The notes under the pieces are model-generated. The model made no database searches, was not told the origin of the DNA, and was given only the letters and a program-made list of their open reading frames with translations. A stretch of DNA of 64,000 nt from Arenimonas daejeonensis. GTDB lineage: Bacteria > Pseudomonadota > Gammaproteobacteria > Xanthomonadales > Xanthomonadaceae. Position numbers and translations under genes: made by a program. Location: the NCBI RefSeq assembly GCF_007993735.1, contig NZ_CP042453.1, forward strand, positions 992,001-1,056,000, given 5' to 3'. Positions within the stretch are counted from its first letter, which is position 1, and every line of letters starts with the position of its first letter. Positions 1 through 12,424 of this stretch are shown here, one piece after another.

Positions 1-1301
1 GGGCAGTACGGTTTCCGTTTCCATGCCGGTCCGGACGGCAGCGACGCCTTCAACCGCCCGATGCCCGACAAGATCGCCGACCTCAACATCCCGCACTGGC
101 GCGAGGGCATTGCTTTCGCCGACCGCCATCACCTGCTGCCGCGCGCGTACCTGTGGGGCCTGGCCGACACCGTGCGTGCCGGCATCGAGGGCCGCGGCCA
201 GAGCAGCCACTGGCTGTGGGGCGTGAAGTACAAGGGCAAGGCGCCGTGGTTCACCTGGCCGAGTTTCGTGCTGGCCAAAGTGCCGCTGGCGCTGACGGCG
301 CTGTCGCTGCTCGGCCTGTTGCTGTTGCCGACGACACGGCTGGAAGCGCCGGCACGCTGGACGCTGGCCGTGCTGCTCGGCGGCAGTGCGGCGCATCTGC
401 TGGCGCTGATGGGTTCACAGGGAACGTACGGCGGCATCCGCCACGCGCTGCCGCTGGTGGTCGCGCTGGCGATCCTGGCGGGCGCGCCGCGGTGGCTTCC
501 GCCTGGCAACGGCGCGCACGCTTCGCCGGCGTGGCGATGGCGGTGTTGTTCCTCGCGGCATTCGGCATGACCCTCCGCGAGCCGCGGTTGTGGGAATACC
601 ACAACGAACTGGCCGGCGGCACCGCGAACGCCTACACGCAGTTCGGCAACGAGGGCCTGGACCTGGGCCAGCGGTTTCCGGAAATGCGGGCCTTCCACGA
701 CCGGGTGATCGTGCCCGAACAAAGCACGCTGTTCGTGGACTACTGGTTCGGCGAGAAACAGGCGATCGCCGCGAAGATGCGTTACCGCCGCCGCATCCTG
801 GGCATGGAAGACGACAACGTGGCCGGCGTGTACGAGGGTTATTTCATGCTCGACATCGGCCGCACGTTGCCGGAACCCGACTGGGGCTGGGATCCGGACA
901 CGATCTACAAGGACACCAAGGTAGTCACCCGGCTGGGCCACGTGCAGGTGCGGAAAGGCCGCGTCGAGGACCCGATGGGGCGTGCGGGCAGCATGTACTA
1001 CGCGGTCGTCGAATACCTGTACCGCAAGTCCGGCAAGGACGATGTGCTGATCACGCGGCGCCTCGAGGAAGTGGTCAAGGTGATTCCGGCGCATGTGGGC
1101 GCCGCCGTGGAGCTGGCCAATGCCTACCAGCGGCTCGGCGACGGCCCGTCGGCCGTGCGCGCGCTGCGCCGGCTGCTGGACCATGAAAAGGTGCCGGTGG
1201 AGGCGCTGGTGCGCACCCAGGTGGAGGCGCAGCTGGCGAAGCTGGAAAGCAGCAGCGACCCGGCGTCGCTGGAGCCGCTGCGCAATCCCTGGATGGAGTG
1301 A
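1..1301 (+). CDS. Membrane glycosyltransferase-like protein (GT39/PMT type), 3' part, frameshifted
   Basis: The gene enters the window already open in frame 1 and ends at TGA 1299-1301. The visible part has two hydrophobic segments typical of the C-terminal half of GT39/PMT-like membrane proteins. One follows a Trp-rich stretch (about 245-330), and the second ends in GIRHALPLVVALAILAGA (about 430-485); in the family the Arg-His pair here lies at the end of a loop. A soluble tail with a tetratricopeptide-like segment follows (about 1040-1260). The reading frame changes near 490-505; restoring one C in a CCTGG context joins the two parts. Such enzymes transfer sugars from polyprenyl-phosphate donors at the periplasmic face. 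The acceptor cannot be inferred, and the catalytic N-terminus lies outside the window. Family assignment is from pattern recognition and is moderate. Confidence 0.55.
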   Translation, partial: AVRFPFPCRSGRQRRLQPPDARQDRRPQHPALARGHCFRRPPSPAAARVPVGPGRHRACRHRGPRPEQPLAVGREVQGQGAVVHLAEFRAGQSAAGADGAVAARPVAVADDTAGSAGTLDAGRAARRQCGASAGADGFTGNVRRHPPRAAAGGRAGDPGGRAAVASAWQRRARFAGVAMAVLFLAAFGMTLREPRLWEYHNELAGGTANAYTQFGNEGLDLGQRFPEMRAFHDRVIVPEQSTLFVDYWFGEKQAIAAKMRYRRRILGMEDDNVAGVYEGYFMLDIGRTLPEPDWGWDPDTIYKDTKVVTRLGHVQVRKGRVEDPMGRAGSMYYAVVEYLYRKSGKDDVLITRRLEEVVKVIPAHVGAAVELANAYQRLGDGPSAVRALRRLLDHEKVPVEALVRTQVEAQLAKLESSSDPASLEPLRNPWME

Positions 1302-1313
1302 TGCCGTTCCGCT

Positions 1314-1802
1314 TCAGGGACGGACCGCCGTCACCTCGATCTCGACCAGGAAACCCGGGTTGGCCAGTGCGGCCACCTGCATGGTCGAACGCACCGGCAG
1401 GTTCGGCTGCGCCTCGGTGCCGAAGAACTGCGAATAGCCCTTCATGAAACCGCCGAAGTCCATCTTCCCGCCCTGGGCCGGGTCGCCGACCAGGAACACC
1501 TGCATCTTCACCACGTCGCCCATCGTCAGGCCCAGCGACTTGAGCTGGCGTTCGATGGCGGTCAGCACGCTGACGGTCTGGAAGTGGGTGTCGCCATAGG
1601 CGGCGACGCTGTCCTTGGCCGCGTTCGGATCGGCGACCGGCGGCACCATGCCGCTGAGATAGACCGTGGTCTTGCCGGCCGGAACTTCCACCGCGGCGGC
1701 GATCGGGAACGTGCTGTTGTTGGGCAGCTTGTGCCGGACCACGCCTTCCGCGGCGAGGCCGAGCGAAGGCAGCAGCAACAACGTGGCGATAAGCAGGCGC
1801 AT
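1314..1802 (-). CDS. Secreted RidA/YjgF-family imine deaminase
   Basis: Intact 162-residue protein. A Sec signal peptide (hydrophobic run LIATLLLLPSLGLAAEG at residues 3-19) precedes a complete RidA fold. RidA enzymes hydrolyse reactive 2-imino acids and enamines to keto acids and ammonia. The substrate-binding Arg is present in LPVRSTMQVAAL and the conserved acidic residue in VEIEVTAV; the common Cys two residues after the Arg is Thr here. Most RidA proteins are cytosolic, so the signal peptide is unusual and matches the exported amine oxidase and cytochrome c just upstream. It is the last gene of the minus-strand series, 14 nt after the cytochrome gene, so co-transcription is likely. Its role in clearing imines made by the neighbouring oxidase is inferred from context. 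Confidence 0.88.
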   Translation of the reverse strand: MRLLIATLLLLPSLGLAAEGVVRHKLPNNSTFPIAAAVEVPAGKTTVYLSGMVPPVADPNAAKDSVAAYGDTHFQTVSVLTAIERQLKSLGLTMGDVVKMQVFLVGDPAQGGKMDFGGFMKGYSQFFGTEAQPNLPVRSTMQVAALANPGFLVEIEVTAVRP

Positions 1803-1816
1803 GGGTGTTCTCCGGG

Positions 1817-2257
1817 TCAGGGATGCAGGGCCCGCACTTCGGCGGCGGTGATCGGGTCGGTGTGATGATTGCCGAAATTCGTGCGGATATGGTTGATGAC
1901 GTCGGCCACCTGGGCGTCGGTGAGCCAGGTGGGCGGGAAGAAGAATTCGTGGTTTTCCGGTCTGGCGAATGCGGGCATGTTGCCGCGGCCCTGAAGAATG
2001 GTCACCGCCATGTAACGCGACGAGGCCACCGCCGGGCTGCCGGCGAAGGACGGATAACGCCCGGCGCCGACCGCGCCACGGCCATCGGGCATGTGGCAGC
2101 CCTGGCACAGCTGGGTGTAGATCTGCGCGCCGGTAACGTCGCCCATCATGCCGTCGGGTTCCGGCGCGGGTTCGGTCTCCTGCGCGCGTGCGAACGACTG
2201 CACGAGTGCACACGAGAGGATCAGCATGCCGAGCGAACGCGCGAGCATCGGATTCAT
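1817..2257 (-). CDS. Periplasmic monohaem cytochrome c
   Basis: Intact 146-residue protein with an N-terminal signal peptide (LGMLILSCALVQSFARA) and one haem-attachment motif, CQGCH, near residue 52. A Met-containing segment, GRGNMPAFA, about 40 residues later can supply the distal haem ligand. This is the class I cytochrome c pattern. Its ATG overlaps the stop of the upstream flavin amine oxidase as ATGA (2254-2257), which indicates translational coupling. Flavin amine oxidases of the NicA2 type are known to pass electrons to a dedicated cytochrome c instead of oxygen, so the simplest role is electron acceptor for the neighbouring oxidase, feeding the respiratory chain. That partnership is inferred from gene order and shared export. 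Confidence 0.88.
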   Translation of the reverse strand: MNPMLARSLGMLILSCALVQSFARAQETEPAPEPDGMMGDVTGAQIYTQLCQGCHMPDGRGAVGAGRYPSFAGSPAVASSRYMAVTILQGRGNMPAFARPENHEFFFPPTWLTDAQVADVINHIRTNFGNHHTDPITAAEVRALHP

Positions 2258-3853
2258 GACGCACCTCCCGTGGACAACGCGCGCTGGTGCAGGCGCCCGA
2301 TCGCATCCAGCGCCGACAGCACGGCGCCTTCCTGCCAGGCCGGCATGTACGAGGCATGTTCGCCGGCCAGCACGATGCGGCCGTCCACAGCGCACAGGTT
2401 GTCGTAGTGTTTTTCGCGCAGCGCTTCCGTCCACAGCCCGAAGCAGCCCATCGTGAACGGCGAACGGTGCCAGGCCACGGACACGCCGCTGTCGAACTCG
2501 GTGTCGTACTGCGGGTGGATGCGGCGGCCCTGTTCGACGGCGGCCTGCACCCGCTGCGCCGGCGACATCGAGGTGAAGCGCATCGCCTCGGTGCCCCAGA
2601 CATAACCGCCCAGCAGCACGCCTTTGCCGGGGGCGTGGTAACCGTGGCTCGGGTAGGAGATCGTGCCGATCGGCTGGTCGGTGTAGCTGATGCCACCGTA
2701 GATGTGCTCGTCCTGTTCCCAGAAGCGGCGCTTGAACTGCAGGCCGATCTTCACCGAAGACGCGTAGGGCAGGGCGGCGATCGCGTCGGCCATCGGCCGG
2801 CCGACGTTCATCGGCACCTGCGACAGGATGGACAGCGGGATCGTGCACACGCACCAGTCGGCGCGCGCGGTGAGCGCCTGGCCGGGCTGGGCGGTGTCTT
2901 CGTAGGCGACCCGCACGCCGCTGCCGTCCTGTTCGATCGCCGTCACCTTGCTGCGGTAGCGGATCAGCCCTTCCAGTTCGCGCGCGAAGGCGACGGCGAT
3001 GCGGTCCATGCCGCCCACCGGCTGCAGCATCGTGCCCTGCATGTCGAAGAGTTCGCCCAGCGGCAGGCTGCCCCACAGTCCCGAACCCAGCAGGTCGGAC
3101 AGCCCCACCGGTTCCGACGGCACCGGCTTTCCGCCCAGACCGCCACCCGGCGTCTTGTCGAAACCGCGGCGATCACTGCTGAAGTGGCCGCGCGCGTACT
3201 TGTATTTCCCGTCCAGCGCGCCCCACCACTGCAGCGAGGCCAGCAGGATTTCTGGTCTTCTTTCGTCAGCGGTGCGTCGAGCCTGCCGCCCTGTGCGGCC
3301 TTGGCCAGCAGTTCGGCGACGTGCCCGTGGTAGTCCGCCTTCACCTTGCGCAGCCGCTGCGGCTTGCCGCCGAAGGCCTGCGTGCCATGCAGGAAGGCGT
3401 TGTAGTTGACCTGCACGAAATTCTCGAGCGGCACGCCGAGCAGGCGGCAGTACGCCAGCAGGCCGTGGTGGTGGTGCGGTATGCGCCACGGGCCCGGGTT
3501 GATGTAGAGGCCGGGGTCGAATTCGCAGTGCTGGGTCTCGCCGCCGAGTTCGGTGTAGGTGTCGCCGCCGCGCAGGCTCATGGTGCGGCCGCCGGCGCGG
3601 GCGTTGTATTCCAGCACCTGCACCCGGTAGCCGGCCTTGCGCAGTTCGTAGGCGGCGACCATGCCGGCCATGCCCGCACCGAGCACCAGCACCGAAGCGC
3701 CGGCCGGCACGCCGCCCAACTTCGGTGGGCCCGAATAGGGGATTCCGCGGCCAGGCCAAGGCTGCTCATCGCCTGGTACATCGCCGCGCTGCCGGCGCTC
3801 AGGCCGATCATGCGCAGCAACTTCCGGCGTGTCATCGGGGTCGCGCTGTGCAT
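2254..3853 (-). CDS. Tat-exported flavin amine oxidase/dehydrogenase, two frameshifts
   Basis: About 530 residues once two indels are bridged. The start at 3853 is preferred because GAGGG lies about 8 nt upstream; it gives a twin-arginine signal, MTRRKLLRMIGLSAG, followed by a hydrophobic stretch. The FAD Rossmann motif is VLVLGAGMAGMVAAYELRKA with a downstream GGRT. The C-terminal FAD/substrate motif is IVLAGEHASYMPAWQEGAV, as in monoamine and L-amino acid oxidases. Breaks lie near 3740 (a C run) and near 3250, where one missing G would restore CCAGG. The enzyme should oxidise an amine or amino acid to an imine in the periplasm. Neighbours fit: ATGA overlap with a cytochrome c, then a secreted RidA. 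The substrate is unknown; nicotine-, polyamine- or amino-acid-like substrates are all possible. Confidence 0.83.
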
Positions 3854-3937
3854 CCGGCATGCCCTCGGGGCGTGGCGGTGGCCGGCGGTTGCCGGCAACA
3901 CCGCTGAAACAGAACGTGGTGGCGGGCCCGCAGCGGC

Positions 3938-4700
3938 CTAGTTGCGCGGCGCCTGCCCGCCCGGTCCGCCCATCGGCAGCCCGGCCTGCTGCCAGGCTTC
4001 AATGCCGCCGCGATACCAAAGCACCTTCGTGTAACCGAGGTTTATCGCCCGCAGCGCGGCGTTGTAGCTCATCCAGCACTGCGTGCTCTGGCAATAGAAC
4101 ACCATCGGCCGGTCCTTGCGGCCCTGGGTGGCCTGCTGCAGGTAGTTGCCGAAATCGGTCTGGACCTGGTCCTGAAACTGCCGCCCTGCGAGGCCGGCAC
4201 CACCGGGATGGCGTTGGGCAGCATCTGCTGGCCGCCCAGCACGTCGAAAATCATCGCGCCGGCGTTGCGGTCCTGCATCAGCTGCACCAGCTCGGGCGTG
4301 GTGATCAGCTGGCCGCCGGGGATGCCGGTGGGCGTCGGGCCGTGCAGGCCGCCGGACTTGAGCTGGGCGGTCGGTGCCACGCCCATGTCCTGGCGCTCCA
4401 TCTGCACGAGGCGTGCCACGGCGTCGCCGCCCTGCGCGGGAGCGGCGGCCGACGGCGGGCCATAACCCTGCGGTGCCGCTTGCTGCGGCGGGTAGGCGGG
4501 TTGCTGTTGCTGCGGATACTGCTGTTGCGGGGACTGCGGCTGTTGTTGTGGTGCCGGTGGCTGCTGGGGTATTGCTGCTGCGGTGGCGGCTGTTGCGGCG
4601 CACTGCCGAAGCTGTCCTGCGCGGCGGCGGCCGCCGGCATCGACGAAACCAGCAGGGCCAGCATCAGCATCTTGTTTCGGCGGGAGGCCAGGTCAGTCAT
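3938..4700 (-). CDS. Secreted rhodanese-domain protein with Gln/Pro-rich linker, two frameshifts
   Basis: Bridging two indels (near 4565 and 4185) gives about 254 residues. An N-terminal signal peptide (MLMLALLVSSMPAAAAA) is followed by a 60-residue Gln/Pro-rich linker and a rhodanese domain that starts at ITTPELVQLMQDRNAGAM. The active-site loop is FYCQSTQCWMSYNAA, with two Cys and a Trp. This resembles secreted CxxCW-type rhodanese proteins linked to periplasmic quinoprotein catabolism, although the Cys spacing here is four residues. The last helix region carries WYRGGIEAWQQAGLPM, typical of rhodaneses. The gene sits between an unknown secreted protein, which it overlaps by 8 nt, and the amine oxidase. 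A thiol or sulfur-transfer role in maturing periplasmic redox proteins is possible but unproven. Confidence 0.72.
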
Positions 4701-5750
4701 CGCTGCGCTCCATCTGTTCGGCGTCTATGCCGAGTTCGGTCTGCGGATTGAAGTTGGGGTCGTTGGTCTGCAGGTAGGTGCCGTCCTGCGCGCGCCAGGC
4801 GTTGTCGTACCGGTTGTCGAGCTGCACCTCGTCGCCGGTGGTCGGGTCGGTGTAGCGGTCCACGTTGTTGATGCCGTCCACCGTCTGCTGCTGGATGCGG
4901 TCGCTGCTGGCGTTGCGGGCGTCCCAGCCGCGCTGGTTGATGTCTGCGATCTCGCGCTGGGTGTCGGAAATGATCTGGCCGCGCTGGATTTGCCCTTGCA
5001 CGCCCTGCCGCGCGATCGTGGTGTTGTGCTTGTTCATGCGCGCTTGCCACTGCGGGTCGGGCTGCATCGAATTGGCGAAGTGGGTGAGCAGGGTCATGTC
5101 CAGCTGACCGGACGGTGCGCGCGACGATACCGGCGCCCCCGCGATGCCACCGTAGAACTTGCGCACCTCGCCCGGCATCACGCCCGCCATCGTGGTTTCG
5201 TTGAACTGCACCACGGCGGCGATGCTTTCGCGCACCTCGCCGCCGGCATCGCGGTAGGCGATCAGCACTTCGCCGCCTTCCTTCCAGTAGCGGGTCTGGC
5301 CGACGGGTGCAGGCGCCGGCGTGCGGACCAGGTCGTTGCGGGCCCGGAAGTCCAGGATGCGCGCCCCGGGGCGATGGCGCTGCACGAAGGACTGCAGGTA
5401 GGCGCGCACGTCGCCGATCGGCCAGCGCGGGCAGCTCGGGTTCTGAATGCCCATGTTGAGGTTGTCCCAGGTCCAGGCCTCGGCAGGCAGCATCTGCAGT
5501 GTCTGCCGGCCATCGGGGACTGCGCCTGCCACTGGAAGCCCGGCGTTGCGCCGCACGGCGCCTGCGGGTTCCAGACCACGCCGCCGGCGGTTTTCCAGCC
5601 GGCCGGGATCTGCACCCACAAGGCCGGCATGGGTTTCTCGAAACCGTTGGGGTCGATCACCGGCACCCGCTGCAGGCCGTTGTCGGCGCCGGCGGTGCTC
5701 AGGCTGGCGGCCAGCGCCAGGGCGAAGGTGAGGCGGTGCGGTCGTGGCAT
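4693..5750 (-). CDS. Secreted protein of unknown function, frameshifted
   Basis: About 352 residues after bridging one indel near 5525 (a C run). It opens with a signal peptide (LTFALALAASLSTAGA). A globular part follows, rich in Trp and Pro and with isolated Cys residues (QAPCGATPGF, NPSCPRWPIG), then an Asn/Gln/Asp-rich polar tail with a segment such as DEVQLDNRYDNAWRAQDGTY. I recognise no enzymatic motif. It is the first structural gene after the ECF sigma gene (67 nt gap) and overlaps the rhodanese gene by 8 nt, so it is probably part of the same exported module. The predicted start at 5750 gives a plausible signal peptide. Function is unknown. Confidence 0.68.
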
Positions 5751-5817
5751 GGTGGTTCCCCCTTTGATCCTTGTGGCGCAGAACGGCGACGGATCGGCTC
5801 ACGCACCGGTCGCGGGC

Positions 5818-6376
5818 CTACCCCGGTTCGGCCAGCGCGTCGTACAGCCAGGTGCGGGCCGCCTGCCAGTGGCGCTTCACCGTGGCCGGCGAACTGGCCA
5901 TGGCCTCGGCGGTTTCCTCGATGGTCAGCCCGCCGAAATAACGCAGCTCGACCACCCGCGCCTTGTCCGGGTCCAGGGGCCTCCAGCCGGGCCAGGGCCG
6001 CGTCCAGCGACATCACGTCCAGGCCGGTGTCCTCGGCGGCGACCTCCAGCCCGGTCAGCGTCACGCGCTGGCCGCCGTCGCGTTTGGCGGCGTCGCGGCG
6101 GCGGGCGTGGTCCACCAGGATCTCGCGCATCAGCCGGGCCGCCATGCGCACGAAGTGGGCACGGTCCTGCCAGTCGATGCGGTCCAGCCCGGACAGCCGC
6201 ATCCAGGCCTCGTTGACCAGGGCGGTGGGCTGCAGGGTGTGCTGGGCGCGTTCGCCGCGGAACTGGCGGTCGGCCAGCAGCCGCAGTTCCGGATAGACCA
6301 CGGCGGCCAGCCGGTCGCGCGCGCCGGTGTCGCCGCCGCGCCAGGCCAAAAGCAGTGCAGTGACGTCCCCCGACAT
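5818..6376 (-). CDS. ECF sigma factor of the kinase-linked (ECF43-like, Sig-70_X6) type, frameshifted
   Basis: About 185 residues with an N-terminal sigma-2 domain (YPELRLLADRQFRGERAQ, then HTLQPTALVNEAWMRL) and a C-terminal sigma-4 helix-turn-helix (VVELRYFGGLTIEETAEAMA, then SPATVKRHWQAARTWL). One extra C near 5976, in a CCCTGG context, splits the two domains. The HTLQPTALVNEAW block is typical of a family whose characterised members lack a normal anti-sigma factor and are switched on by phosphorylation of a Thr in sigma region 2 by a partner Ser/Thr kinase. Such a kinase gene starts 96 nt away on the other strand. Downstream on the same strand lies the secreted amine-oxidase series, which may be its regulon. 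Both regulatory statements are inferences. Confidence 0.85.
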
Positions 6377-6472
6377 GGCGGCAGTCTACGCCCGGCCAGG
6401 GCCGTGAGCCGGTCCGGTCCCTTCCTGCGCCTTCTGCTAGTGTCAGGCCGCAGGGTGCGGTCGGGGGAACGC

Positions 6473-8875
6473 ATGAAAACATCGATGGAAGTGCAGGTGC
6501 TGCAGGTTTTCGAGCGTGTGCTGGCGCAGCCGCCGCAGGACCGTACCGACTGGCTGGCGGCCCAGGACCTGGCGCCGGAAGTTCGCGAACGCGTGCAGCG
6601 CCTGCTGGACGCCGAACCCGCCGCGGGCGGCTTCATGGAGGAAACCGCGGTCGCGCCCGACGCCGTGCCGCCCGAGTTCCCCAAAGTGGGCGAACGCCTG
6701 GGCAACTACGAGCTGCTCAAGCCGCTGGAAGCCGGCGGCATGGGCGTGGTCTACCTGGGCCGGCGCGCCGACGACGTCTACGACCAGCAGGTGGCGATCA
6801 AGCTGGTGCGCCCGGTGCACCTGCTGGCCGCGGCCGAGTTCCGTCGCCAGCTGATCTCGCGCTTCGAGGACGAACGGTCGATCCTGGCGCGCATGAGCCA
6901 CCCGAACGTGGCCCGCATCCTCGACGGCGGCAGCACCGCCGGCGGCATCCCCTACCTGATGATGGAGTTCGTGGATGGCGTGTCGCTGACCGAGTACTGC
7001 AAGCGCAACAAGCTGGACGTGCCGGCGCGGCTGAAACTCTTCCGCAAGGTCTGCGACGGCGTGCAGGAAGCGCACCGCCACCTGATCGTGCACCGCGACC
7101 TGAAGCCCGACAACATCCTGGTCGGCGACAACGGCGAACCGCGCCTGCTCGATTTCGGCATCGCCAAGATCCTGGAACAGGAACCGCTGGCCCGGCCGGC
7201 AAACCCAGCACGTCGCTGAGCGCCATGACGCCGGCCTATGCCAGCCCCGAACAGGTGCGCCAGGAAGTCCTGACCACCAGCTCCGACGTCTATTCGCTGG
7301 GCGTGATGCTGTACCAGCTGCTGGCCGGCGTGCGGCCCTACGAACTCGGCGGCCTGCGTCCGTCGGAAGCCGAACACGTCGTCTGCGAGACCCTGCCCGA
7401 TCCGATGAGGAAGATGCTGGACAAGGCCGTGCTGACCGACGCCGAGCGCAAACAGCGCCGCGCCCAGCTGACGCCCGACCTCGAGCGCATCGTCGCCAAG
7501 GCCATGCACAAGGAAGCGGCGCGGCGCTACGGTTCGGCCTCGGAACTGGCCGACGACCTGCAGCGTTACCTCGACGGCCAGCCCGTGCTGGCACATCCGG
7601 ATTCCACCGCCTACCGCCTGCGCAAGTTCGTGCGCCGGCATCGCATCGGCGTGGCGGCGGCCTCGCTGGCGCTGCTGGCCATCCTCACCGCCAGCGGCGT
7701 GGCGGTGTGGCAGGCAAAGGTGGCGCGCCAGGCGGCCAGCGACATGGCCGAGGTCAATAGCTTCCTGCTGGACGTGCTCCGGTATTCCGACCCGTACAGC
7801 GCCGGCGGCGAAGCGACCCTGGCGCAGGCGGTGGACGCGGCCGTGGTGCACCTGGAACGCCGGTTCCCGGATCGCCCGGAGATTTCTTCCGGCATCCGCC
7901 ACGTGCTGGGCTACAGCCAGTCCAGCCGCAACCAATTGGAATCGGCCGACGAACAGCTGGGCAAGGCGCTGCAGGAGGCTACCGCGGCCTTCGGCCCCGA
8001 TGACCGTCGCTCTTTCGAGATCCGCGAAGGCATCGCCCAAGTGCGCATCGCCCAAGGACGCATCGACGATGCGGAGAAGATGTTGCTGTCACTGCTGGCC
8101 GACCTGCGCGGTTCCGGCCTGCAGGACGACCCGCTGCACTTCCTGGTGCTAAACAACCTGGGGCAGCTGTATCTCGACCTGGAGAATTATCCCGAGGCGC
8201 GGCGCTACCTGCAGGAAGCGCAGGCACTGCCGCTGCGGACGCTGGGCACCTTGAACGCCAATTCGCGCGCCGTGCTGGTCGCCAACCTGGCCTATGTCGC
8301 CCACGGTCTGGGCGAGCTGGAGAACGCCGACCAGCTGTATACCCAGGCCGAAGCCATGCACCGCGGCCTGCACCCCGACGGCAGCGCCGAACTGGCGTCG
8401 GTGCTGAACAACCGCGCCTTCCTGCTGGACGACCTGGAACGCGCGGACGAAGCCTACGTTATGCGTCAACAGTCGCTGGCGATGCGCGAAGGCGTGCTGG
8501 GCGACAAGCACCCGGCCCCTGGTGCGGCCGATGCTGGACCTGGCGCAGAGTGCGTTGATGCGCGACGACGCCGAGACCGGCCTGCGGCTGGCGACGCGCG
8601 CGGTCGAAGTGGCCACGCAGGCCTACCCGCAACCAAATGCCGACACCGTGTTCGCGATGGGCATCCAGGCCGGCGCGCTGATCAACAACAAACGGTTCGT
8701 CGACGCCGGCGAAGTGCTGAGTCGCGCCGAAGCCGACCTGGCGAAACTCGAAGCGCCGCCCGAGTACATCGTCGAAGGCCTCGGCTATGTGCGCCAGGGC
8801 CTGTGCAAGCGGCCGCGCGATCCACCGGTGCCGAGCTGCGCCGGGATCGTGCCGACGGAGCCGGCGTTGCCGTAG
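6473..8875 (+). CDS. Transmembrane Ser/Thr protein kinase with TPR sensor region, two frameshifts
   Basis: About 800 residues. The Hanks-type kinase domain (roughly residues 75-330) has GGMGVVYLG, the ATP-binding Lys in VAIKLV, catalytic HRDLKPDN, metal-binding DFG and the activation-segment SPE in YASPEQ. A transmembrane helix (IGVAAASLALLAILTASGVA, about residues 390-412) is followed by tetratricopeptide repeats, for example LNNLGQLYLDLENYPEARRY, up to the C-terminus. Indels near 7190 (C run, between DFG and SPE) and 8517 (extra C in CCCTGG) break the frame. The start at 6473 has a GGGGGA upstream. Being divergent from the ECF sigma gene, it is the likely activating kinase. The TPR part may sense a periplasmic or protein ligand. 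All catalytic residues are present, so activity is expected. Confidence 0.88.
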
Positions 8876-8917
8876 CGCCTGCGGAACAACGAACTCGATG
8901 GATCAGGAATGAGAACG

Positions 8918-9309
8918 ATGCAACTCGCACTTGCCGCCTTGGGCGCGGCAATGGTCAACGCTTGTGCGACCGCCCCCGGCATATGACTTTCCAGGAGCTC
9001 GAGTCACACGTCGGCGACTTGGCCAGCGTTTCGGTCACGGGCTGTGTTGTTATGACGGAGCTCGGGGCGCACGCCTTGTTCAAGGACTGCGATGCTGCAA
9101 AGGCCGGAAATCCGGATAACGCTGTGGATCTCGGGTTCGGCGCACAGGAAGCGCCGCTCGTCGCCCCGGGCAGTTCCGTTTGTCTTCTCGTGACGGGCAG
9201 GTTTTACGATCTTGATGGCCAATCCATCGTCACCGGTCGCACCTTCGGCACCCTTGGTATGTTTGGCGCCACCGAATGGGAGCTTGTCGACTGTGAAGGC
9301 GAAAGTTGA
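8918..9309 (+). CDS. Small lipoprotein of unknown function, frameshifted
   Basis: A short lipoprotein signal peptide (MQLALAALGAAMVNAC, lipobox VNAC) begins at ATG 8918 with AGGA nine bases upstream. A stop appears at the end of the GCCCCCGG run near 8985. Adding one C there joins it to a compact 105-residue domain that starts MTFQELESHVG and has four Cys residues, suggesting disulfides. I recognise no family. It follows the kinase gene by 42 nt on the same strand and may be co-transcribed with it. An auxiliary role in the kinase sensory pathway is possible but only positional. Confidence is moderate because the joined reading depends on one inferred base. Confidence 0.5.
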
Positions 9310-9368
9310 ATCGACCAAGGCTTTCTAGACACCCGAAACGCAGACCAGAACCCCGGATCCCATCGTCA

Positions 9369-12300
9369 TCAGCCCCGCTTCTCCCCACGCGTAAACCGCC
9401 GCGTGAACGTCTCCATCGCCGCGAAGGCCGCCGGGATCACCACCAGGCTCAGTACGGTCGAGGTGATCAGGCCGCCGATCACGGCCACGGCCATCGGCTG
9501 ACGGAAGGCGGCGTCGGCGCCGAAACCCAGGGCGATCGGCAGCATGCCGGCGCTCATCGCGATCGAGGTCATCACCACCGGGCGGGCGCGTTTGTGGCAG
9601 GCGTCCATAAGGGCGTCGTGCATGTCCATGCCCTTCTCGTCCTCGGCGATCACCGCGTAGTCCACCAGCAGGATCGAGTTCTTGGTGGCGATGCCGATCA
9701 GCATCAGCAGGCCGATCAGCGCCGGCAGCGACAGTAGGGTGCCGGTGAGGAACATCAGGCCGAAGGCGCCGCCGGCCGACAGCGGCACCGCCATCAGGAT
9801 GATCAGCGGGTGGCTGGCGTGGTTGAACAGCAGCAACAGCACCGCGTACACGCAGAACAGGCCGGCCGCCATCGCCAGCGCGAAGCCGACGAACAGTTCG
9901 ACGAAGATCTCGGCGTCGCCGTAGGGCTGGGTGCGCACGCCGGGCGGCAGGTTCTTCAGCGTCGGCAACTCGTTCACCTCGTTCATCACGTCGCCCAGCG
10001 GGCGGCCGCTGAGTTCGGCGGTGAAGGTGATCTGGCGGGCGCGGCCCAGGCGGTTGATCACCGACGGTCCGCTGCCGGTGCGGATGTCCGCCACGGCCGA
10101 CAGCGGCACGGTGCCGCCCTTGTTGCTGGGCACGCGCATCAACGACAGCAGCGCCTCGTCCGACAGCGAGTCCTCGGCCATGCGCACGCGGATCGGGATC
10201 TGGCGGTCGGCCAGGTTCAGCTTGGCCAGGCGCTGGCGGTAGTCGCCGCTGGTGGCGATGCGCGCGGCTTCGGCGATGTCCATCGTCGACACGCCCAGGT
10301 CGGCGGCGCGGCGCGCGTCCGGCACGATCACCAGCTCGGGCCGCAGCAGCGAGGCGGTGGAACTGATCGTGCCCAGGCCTGGATGCCGCGCAGCTCGCGG
10401 TCCAGCGACTGCGCCGCCGAATACAGCGCCTGCGGGTCATTGCCGGCCAGCACCACCTGCATCTGTTCGCCCGGTTCGCTGCTGATGAAACGCTGGCGCA
10501 CGCCGGGGATCACCGCCAGGCGTTCGCGCACCTCGCGCTCCAGTTCCTTCTGCGACCGGTCGCGCCCGTCTTCCAGACCCCAGTCCAGCACCATCACCAC
10601 CTTGCGCACGTCGGCGATGCCGCTGACGTTGGGGTCGCCGAAGTCCACCACGCCGCCGACGGTGGCGTAGGCCTGCTTCAGTTCCGGGATGTCCGACAGC
10701 AGCTTGCGCGCGCGTTCGGCCACGTCCACGGTCTGCTGCAGGCGCGCGCCCGGCGGCAGTTCCAGGCTCAGGTTGCTGCGGCCCAGGTCGGAGCCGGGGA
10801 TGAAGGTCGCCGGAATCATCGCCGCGATGCCCAGCGAACCGACAAACATCAGGAAGGCCGCCAGCAGCGTCAGGAAGCGGTGCGCCAGCGCCCACTCCAC
10901 CCAGCCCAGGTACCAGCGCATCACCGGGCCGTCTTCTTTCTCCGGGTGCGCCTTGGCCTTGAGCTGGTAGGCCGCCATCATCGGCGTCAACAGGCGCGCG
11001 ACCAGCAGCGAGAACAGCACGGCGGTGGCCGCGGTCCAGCCGAATTCCAGGAAGAACTTGCCGGCCACGCCGGGCATGAAGGCCACCGGCACGAACACCG
11101 CCGCCAGCGTCGCCGACGTCGCGATCACCGCCAGGCCGATCTCGTCGGCGGCTTCGGTCGCGGCCTGCTTCGGCGGCTTGCCCATGGCCAGGTGGCGGTC
11201 GATGTTCTCGACCTCGACGATGGCGTCGTCCACCAGGATGCCCACCACCACCGCCAGCGCCAGCAGGGTCACCATGTTCAGGCTGAAACCGAACAGCCAC
11301 ATCACGCCGAAGGTCGGGATGATGGACAGCGGCAGCGCCACCGCCGAGATCCAGGTCGAACGCCAGTCGCGCAGGAAGAACCACACCACGATCACGGCCA
11401 GCAGCGCGCCTTCCCACAGCATGGTCATGGACGAGGTGTAGGAGGCCTGCACTTCCTGCACGGCCGAGAACACCGGGGTGATCTTCACGCCAGGGTGGTC
11501 GGCCTCGAGCTGGCGCACGGCGGCTTCGACGCCGGCGCCGACTTCGATCTCGCTGCTGCCGCGGGTGCGGGTGATGGCGAAGGCCACCACGGGTTTGCCA
11601 TCGAGCAGGGCGACCTGGCGGCGCTCCTCGTGGCCGTCGCTGACGTCGGCCAGGGCCGACAGCGGCACCTGGCGGCCGTCGGCGATGCGGATCGGGAAGG
11701 CGCGCAGGTCCTGGGCGCTGGCGACGGTGCCGACGGCGCGGATCGCCTGTTCGCTGCTGCCCCAGGTGGCGCGGCCGCCGGAACGTTCCAGCTGGCTTTC
11801 CGCCAATTGCTGCGACAACTGCCCGGCGGTGATGCCGTAGGCCTGCAGCACGCCCGGGCGCAGGTCCACCTGCACTTCGCGGTCGATGCCGCCGGCGCGC
11901 GTCACCTGGCCGACGCCGGGCACGCCGAACATCGCCTTGGTGACGTCGTTGTCCACGAACCAGCTCAGCTCGTCCTCCGCCATCGAATCGGCGGCGACCG
12001 CGTAGGTGACCAGGGTGCCGCCGACCACGTCGATCTTGGCGACGATGGGTTCTTCGACATCCTGCGGCAGGTCGGTGCGCACGCGCGTGACGGCGTCGCG
12101 CACCTCGTCCAGCGCTTCGTTCAGGTCCTTGCCGATCCGGAATTCGACGAAGGTGGTGGAACGGCCCTCGACCACGGTGGACACCAGGTTCTTGATGCCC
12201 GGCAGGGTGGCGATGGAATCCTCGACCTTGCGGGTGACCTCGGTCTCGAGCTGGGCCGGCGTCGCCGACGGCTGCGCCACGGTGACGGTGATGCCCGGGA

Positions 12301-12424
12301 AGGCGATGTCGGGGAAACGCGACACCGCCAGCTGCTGGAAGCCGACCAGGCCGACGATGCCCAGCAGGATGAACAGCAGGATCGCCGGCAGCGGCCGGTT
12401 GATGGACCACGCGGAAAAATTCAT
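9369..12424 (-). CDS. RND efflux pump inner-membrane transporter, frameshifted
   Basis: About 1,018 residues, the usual size for RND permeases. It starts with MNFSAWSINRPLPAILLFIL and contains the proton-relay Asp pair in VVVGILVDDAIVEVEN (TM4) and the conserved Lys in LMLIGIATKNSILLVDYA (TM10). Two large periplasmic loops are present. The frame breaks near 10382, where one C missing from a CCCAGG context would join the halves. The adaptor gene lies upstream, 4 nt from the start of this gene. No outer-membrane channel is adjacent, so the pump probably uses TolC; a tolC-like gene is at 25579. Substrates cannot be told from sequence; the family mainly expels hydrophobic drugs and detergents. 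Confidence 0.88.

Follow-up and report, generated by a model that had tools for sequence, protein, structure and literature searches.

The closest described relative of the system considered here is the lao-cccA-ridA cluster of Gluconacetobacter diazotrophicus PAL5 (GDI2456-2454), described in 2016 (PMC5053998). Its L-amino acid oxidase (LAAO) has a twin-arginine translocation (Tat) signal and is needed for formation of indole-3-acetic acid (IAA) from tryptophan, and Tn5 insertions in lao abolish IAA. The cluster is reported to be conserved in Caulobacter and Xanthomonas, and the same paper already suggests that the cytochrome has a part in electron transfer, that RidA hydrolyses the imine and that the LAAO is periplasmic, with a complex of Chlamydomonas as the analogy (PMC5053998). 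Clustering of genes for Rid proteins with those for flavin adenine dinucleotide (FAD) amine oxidases was reported in 2015 (PMC4433059), and Chlamydomonas has a periplasmic LAO1 together with LAO2/RIDA (PMC10805672). Flavin amine oxidoreductases (FAOs) with a Tat signal and an adjacent monohaem cytochrome c (CytC), assigned to clades from a search with NicA2, are mostly cytochrome-using dehydrogenases, and an adjacent CytC is a good predictor of dehydrogenase behaviour in related FAOs (PMC12224317). Here we describe a putative operon of this kind in Arenimonas daejeonensis, within a stretch of 64,000 nucleotides (the window; assembly GCF_007993735.1, contig NZ_CP042453.1, positions 992,001 to 1,056,000) whose own numbering is used unless stated otherwise.

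The genes for the FAO, the monohaem cytochrome c and the Rid protein are consecutive and on one strand. In the direction of transcription, on the minus strand, the order is hypothetical protein, rhodanese, oxidase, cytochrome c and Rid, and an ATGA at 2257-2254 is common to the stop codon of the oxidase (TGA) and the start codon of the cytochrome (ATG). The features are as follows:

1802-1314, minus strand: ridA, 162 aa; predicted Rid3-like imine deaminase with an N-terminal Sec-type signal; PF01042, 60 bits
2257-1817, minus strand: cccA-type monohaem cytochrome c, 146 aa; a single CxxCH (CQGCH) and a signal peptide; PF00034
3835-2254, minus strand: lao, predicted Tat-type flavin L-amino acid oxidoreductase (LAAO type); PF01593 on both pieces, Tat-type motif TRRKLL
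4700-3938, minus strand: predicted exported rhodanese related to PQQ_CXXCW; PF00581 on the C-terminal piece only, signal peptide by eye
5789-4693, minus strand: predicted exported hypothetical protein, a neighbour that adjoins the rhodanese here and in the same-genus relative G042

The locus resembles the G. diazotrophicus cluster in the adjacency of the same three families in the Tat signal on the oxidase and in identity to the LAAO of Rhodococcus opacus (RoLAAO), which is 34% for the G. diazotrophicus protein (PMC5053998) and 36% for the copy in G042. Six peptides encoded by the quantitative PCR primers for lao, cccA and ridA (PMC5053998, Table 1) are all in register with the proteins here, a comparison that covers the primer peptides only. 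From the primer positions, the RidA motif of G. diazotrophicus lies 3-4 residues later than that of the window, so that a signal peptide could be accommodated in that protein as well. The available text on G. diazotrophicus differs in naming an export signal for LAAO alone and in showing a role in IAA formation from tryptophan (PMC5053998), and in the locus described here the rhodanese pair is upstream. The Chlamydomonas LAO1-LAO2/RIDA pair similarly places an L-amino acid oxidase and a RidA together outside the cytosol, but it is eukaryotic, produces H2O2 and, in the available portions of the paper, has no named cytochrome partner (PMC10805672). With the FAO dehydrogenases NicA2 and Pnao the locus shares a Tat-exported flavin amine oxidoreductase and an adjacent Sec-exported cytochrome c (PMC12224317).

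We conclude that this is probably an operon of the lao-cccA-ridA kind, encoding a periplasmic L-amino acid dehydrogenase that is linked to a cytochrome, and a Rid3-like imine deaminase. We infer from sequence the substrate class, the cytochrome as acceptor and the imine as substrate of Rid. In the proposed scheme the flavoenzyme, exported in folded form by the Tat pathway, would oxidise the alpha-carbon of L-amino acids to give a 2-imino acid, and its reduced FAD would pass two electrons, singly, to the cytochrome c encoded beside it. By analogy with NicA2, this cytochrome is our best guess for the electron acceptor. The cytochrome would deliver the electrons to a terminal oxidase; the genome has three COX1 genes, one of them intact. 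In the same compartment, the exported Rid3-like protein would hydrolyse the imino acid, giving a 2-oxo acid and ammonia. Export was assigned from motifs and hydropathy; in the counts of Rid frames, signal peptides were called by an ad hoc hydropathy rule rather than by SignalP, with any start codon 12-50 residues upstream accepted.

Conservation of the neighbourhood was examined in three sets of loci, counting a Rid gene within 1.5 kb and an A3-type cytochrome within 400 bp. As named loci we took the 80 top-scoring of at least 576 relatives, and 78 of these 80 entered the neighbour counts (two dropped for short downstream DNA). The family sample has 99 genomes including that of A. daejeonensis and gave 13 loci outside it, 12 of them used (one dropped for short downstream DNA). 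The phylum sample has 398 genomes searched at E 1e-80, with up to 3 candidates scored per genome and 29 loci examined; a second oxidase of genome G250 is not counted separately. These counts include near relatives (Xanthomonas, Dyella, Bradyrhizobium) that are non-independent, the named loci L061 and L096 match L019 and L020, and phylum-sample loci may repeat named genomes.

The oxidase is present in 13 of the 99 family genomes, own included, and all 12 usable family loci have both a cytochrome and a Rid beside it; the Rid is downstream as in the window in 11 of them and divergent upstream in the other (L020). Among the 78 named loci a cytochrome stands beside the enzyme in 77 and a Rid gene is nearby in 49. 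A genome has on average about 2.6 PF01042 genes (26 genomes gave 67 matches at E 1e-10), and by our own estimate the probability that one lies by chance 1.5 kb or less from any particular gene is far below 1%. The closest named oxidases among the matches listed are those of Dokdonella immobilis (74%) and an Arenimonas metagenome-assembled genome (73%).

The phylum sample contains an oxidase match in 27 of 398 genomes, own included, and the neighbours vary with the score. Above 700 bits (n=15) an A3-type cytochrome lies within 400 bp in 14 loci and within 500 bp in all 15, with Rid in 9; the additional one, in L149 (107 bits), is 448 bp away, just past the limit, and the locus is mislabelled in the tree. 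All three loci at 480-700 bits have both cytochrome and Rid. Below 480 bits (n=11) there is no A3-type cytochrome, another CxxCH protein in 3 loci, and Rid in 8. In L160, L161 and L167, all distant relatives, a CxxCH protein is between oxidase and Rid and is unmatched by the A3 cytochrome profile, as if a different cytochrome occupied the same slot. In the oxidase tree, the 106 rows with an A3-type cytochrome label cluster, with 3 changes against a shuffled mean of 12.5; the tree was built by a quick method, has RoLAAO on a very long branch and was used only for this clustering.

The nearest solved relative of the enzyme is RoLAAO (2jae), which matches the oxidase profile with 379 bits, followed by an ancestral LAAO with 196; monoamine oxidases, lysine oxidases and LSD1 rank far below. 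Identity to RoLAAO is 36% over 485 aa for the G042 copy, and 46% over 147 aa and 31% over 319 aa for the window pieces. Residues R120, Y414, W503 and K365 are invariant in 11 relatives and present in the window pieces, and we take them to be the equivalents of Arg84, Tyr371, Trp467 and the flavin Lys of RoLAAO, with Arg84 and Tyr371 presumably binding the substrate carboxylate. Since these Arg and Tyr positions are kept, a substrate with an alpha-carboxylate is expected. The enzyme is LAAO-like, unlike NicA2 and Pnao, and none of the 60 chains listed of 105 solved relatives is NicA2; NicA2 was therefore rejected as the best sequence model. AlphaFold models are too poor to use (pLDDT 66 for the window Rid and 62 for the G042 oxidase), probably as a result of shallow alignments.

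The cytochrome c of the window aligns with those of 11 neighbours and is conserved; among solved structures it matches best the cytochrome subunits of dehydrogenases for fructose and alcohol. In the Rid protein Arg138, which by its position we presume to be the conserved catalytic Arg, is invariant in 12 of 12 aligned rows. Its closest solved chains are 9bka (PSPTO_3006, 154 bits) and 9bkc (PFL_1385, 139 bits), with the next at 43 bits; both proteins are assigned to Rid3 (PMC5619798), and by this match the window protein appears to be Rid3-like. PFL_1385 and PSPTO_3006 removed, in vitro, imines made from Leu, Gln, Phe, Met and His by snake-venom LAAO; the assays differ from the arrangement proposed here in using venom LAAO and DauA rather than a genomic partner enzyme (PMC5619798). 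The printed N-terminus of PFL_1385 is hydrophobic and signal-peptide-like, as is that of the window Rid.

Inspection and alignment both point to a Sec-type signal at the N-terminus of the window Rid, and similar starts are frequent among oxidase-linked Rids. A signal-peptide-like N-terminus is found in 79 of 82 such frames (a count that includes both fragments of the broken gene L029 and the L020/L096 pair) against 3 of 28 control Rids under the same rule. The controls are the best PF01042 matches in relatives, mostly housekeeping Rids, from 28 of 31 loci (3 left out for cut flanks). The oxidase-linked frames that fail are the second fragment of L029 and those of L168 and L169; of the positive controls, L214 seems to reflect a spurious upstream start, and L223 and L224 seem to have true signals. 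The Rids of L223 and L224, both from order-level relatives, are unlike the oxidase-linked type, which suggests that more than one kind of Rid is exported.

A Tat-type motif is present in 116 of 123 oxidase frames, the seven others being L126, L148, L152, L153, L160 (near-Tat by eye), L168 and L169, and the genome of A. daejeonensis has a tatC, split over frames. In L168 and L169 the oxidase keeps the RR pair, with charged residues replacing the hydrophobic stretch; the Rid has no signal and begins like PSPTO_3006, whose printed alignment lacks one, and there is no cytochrome near. In L166, of the same genus, the oxidase is Tat-type and the Rid is exported, again with no cytochrome. L168 and L169 both belong to one genus and therefore represent one event. 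The export signals of oxidase and Rid thus appear to be present or absent together, the absence resting on one loss.

The preliminary description of this DNA had proposed an exported four-gene module of rhodanese, flavin oxidase, cytochrome c and Rid. Its core holds: the Tat-type flavoenzyme, the ATGA-coupled monohaem cytochrome c and the signal-bearing Rid were all located in a row, conservation of this trio in relatives is borne out by the counts in the family and named loci, and export of the Rid proteins, as judged by the signal rule, is supported. All four genes are present with signals, as claimed, although that description had overlooked the frame breaks in the genes for the oxidase and the rhodanese. 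Co-occurrence extends to oxidase, cytochrome and Rid but not to the rhodanese, which is found in 1 of 122 loci.

Several observations weigh against the proposed dehydrogenase operon. In its own assembly the gene for the enzyme lacks a continuous open frame. The position that we take to correspond to Trp426 of RoLAAO is a Phe here, and R. opacus LAAO itself is an oxidase that uses O2. Eight of the 29 loci of the phylum sample, each scoring below 480 bits, have no cytochrome nearby, and no Rid stands beside the enzyme in 29 of the 78 named loci. These 29 Rid-less loci correspond to 28 searched genomes, L092 being apparently the same genome as L067 by accession, and 13 of the 28, whose completeness is not stated, have no Rid match genome-wide at E 1e-12. 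Because of these 13, Rid is a frequent, non-obligatory partner of the enzyme. Fifteen of the 28 have a related Rid elsewhere, those inspected starting hydrophobically by eye, and in 7 genomes with a Rid-less locus a Rid is beside a second oxidase. In the published FAO work clade 1 enzymes with c4-type cytochromes reacted slowly whether O2 or CytC was offered, and one enzyme could use either (PMC12224317); for the Rid family, a figure legend credits rescue of a ridA mutant to RidA and Rid1 but not to Rid3 (PMC5619798). Three of the Rid-less loci, from Bradyrhizobium (L080, L105 and L140), have a long, apparently exported frame 3' of the cytochrome with a DIYKELVEI-like start. By eye this may be an M20-type peptidase that supplies substrate.

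The enzyme could instead be an ordinary L-amino acid oxidase of the periplasm that uses O2 and releases H2O2, with the cytochrome serving another use such as peroxide removal. The nearest solved relatives are indeed named L-amino acid oxidases, and the eight phylum-sample loci with no cytochrome nearby suit this explanation; the cytochrome nevertheless adjoins the enzyme in all but one of the 78 named loci, and an adjacent CytC predicts dehydrogenase behaviour in related FAOs (PMC12224317), so that we consider a plain oxidase unlikely. A different possibility concerns purpose rather than acceptor, namely that the operon mainly feeds tryptophan into auxin (IAA) via indole-3-pyruvate, as proposed for G. 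diazotrophicus. The loss of IAA in lao insertion mutants and the in-register primer peptides of all three genes speak for it (PMC5053998), but occurrence across many genera of Proteobacteria suits general amino acid use equally and R. opacus LAAO is broad in substrate (PMC5053998). A mainly auxin-directed role is in our view very unlikely, and cytochrome-linked oxidation of L-amino acids is preferred.

It is also quite improbable that the operon has decayed into a pseudogene in A. daejeonensis. The oxidase gene is spread over three frames, with breaks near 3740-3737 and 3252-3249 relative to the open G042 copy, and the rhodanese frame is broken near 4177-4165. In G042 the oxidase is in one open frame, with 551 aa between stop codons and 528 aa when counted from the start codon chosen. 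However, the cytochrome c and Rid frames are open and conserved, and breaks of the same kind are present in other conserved genes: in the hypothetical protein near 5517-5514, in genes of the first 12 kb compared with G042 (ECF sigma factor, protein kinase/TPR, RND transporter, names by Pfam, and a gene at 7-1298), and elsewhere in the contig in tatC (contig positions 842475-843104) and two of the three COX1 genes. For this reason the breaks in the oxidase and rhodanese frames are most likely assembly indels. Across window positions 1-12424 most of the conserved genes compared carry frame breaks, and the assembly, a single contig of 3.03 Mb with a completeness score of 86%, seems indel-rich; lone frame breaks in this genome are therefore no basis for calling pseudogenes. 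A further reading would join all the genes, rhodanese and hypothetical protein included, into one functional unit in which the rhodanese handles substrate sulfur or cyanide. Shared strand and tight spacing, both in the window and in G042, favour such a unit; against it, the two genes are near the oxidase in one of 122 loci, that of G042, and were not found at E 1e-5 in the other 121, and of the 5 family genomes (among 99) that have the rhodanese, 3 have no oxidase match. We regard a single unit of this extent as extremely improbable. The rhodanese was rejected as a module member on these counts, contrary to the preliminary description, and is a neighbour, not a conserved part of the module.

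The rhodanese carries a CxxxxCW motif, and against TIGR03865 (PQQ_CXXCW), which has a cut-off of 128 bits, the open G042 copy scores 97.7 and the window piece 86.8, both below it. The hypothetical protein (frame 4696-5751) matches no Pfam family at E 0.01. Beyond it, an extracytoplasmic function (ECF) sigma factor gene (6385-5833, minus strand; PF07638) adjoins a protein kinase/TPR gene (6404-8845, plus strand; PF00069 and TPR). The two genes, spanning 5833-8845 and both matched in G042, are possible regulators of the operon.

The module is real, conserved, largely known and already named in print. The preliminary description's view that it is not a described system is superseded by the lao-cccA-ridA cluster of 2016 (PMC5053998), the Rid-FAD clustering of 2015 (PMC4433059) and the Chlamydomonas pair (PMC10805672), and its amine substrate and NicA2 sequence model give way to an LAAO-type enzyme, with RoLAAO as nearest solved relative and the presumed carboxylate Arg and Tyr kept. 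What is new is that an enzyme of LAAO lineage probably has a cytochrome as acceptor, that the exported Rid is widespread, and that the two export signals are present or absent together, the last point resting on one loss. The available main text of the FAO study contains no occurrence of 'Rid' or 'L-amino acid' (PMC12224317), and among open-licence papers we found no title on an oxidase-linked exported bacterial Rid and none that treats an exported Rid as a general partner. We give about even chances to the broader proposal of a widespread, compartment-matched damage-control module, in which a cytochrome-linked L-amino acid dehydrogenase of LAAO lineage, rather than an oxidase, would be paired with a dedicated exported Rid3 that clears its imino-acid product in the periplasm, both exports being gained or lost together.

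If the cytochrome is the acceptor, enzymes annotated in many Proteobacteria as H2O2-producing L-amino acid oxidases would be respiratory dehydrogenases, and the way in which soil and plant bacteria use amino acids and make auxin would have to be seen differently. Imine clearance by Rid, known mainly from the cytosol, would moreover be placed in the periplasm. The usual pyridoxal phosphate enzyme targets are not expected there, which would raise the question of what the imine damages in this compartment, or whether Rid simply makes the pathway faster.

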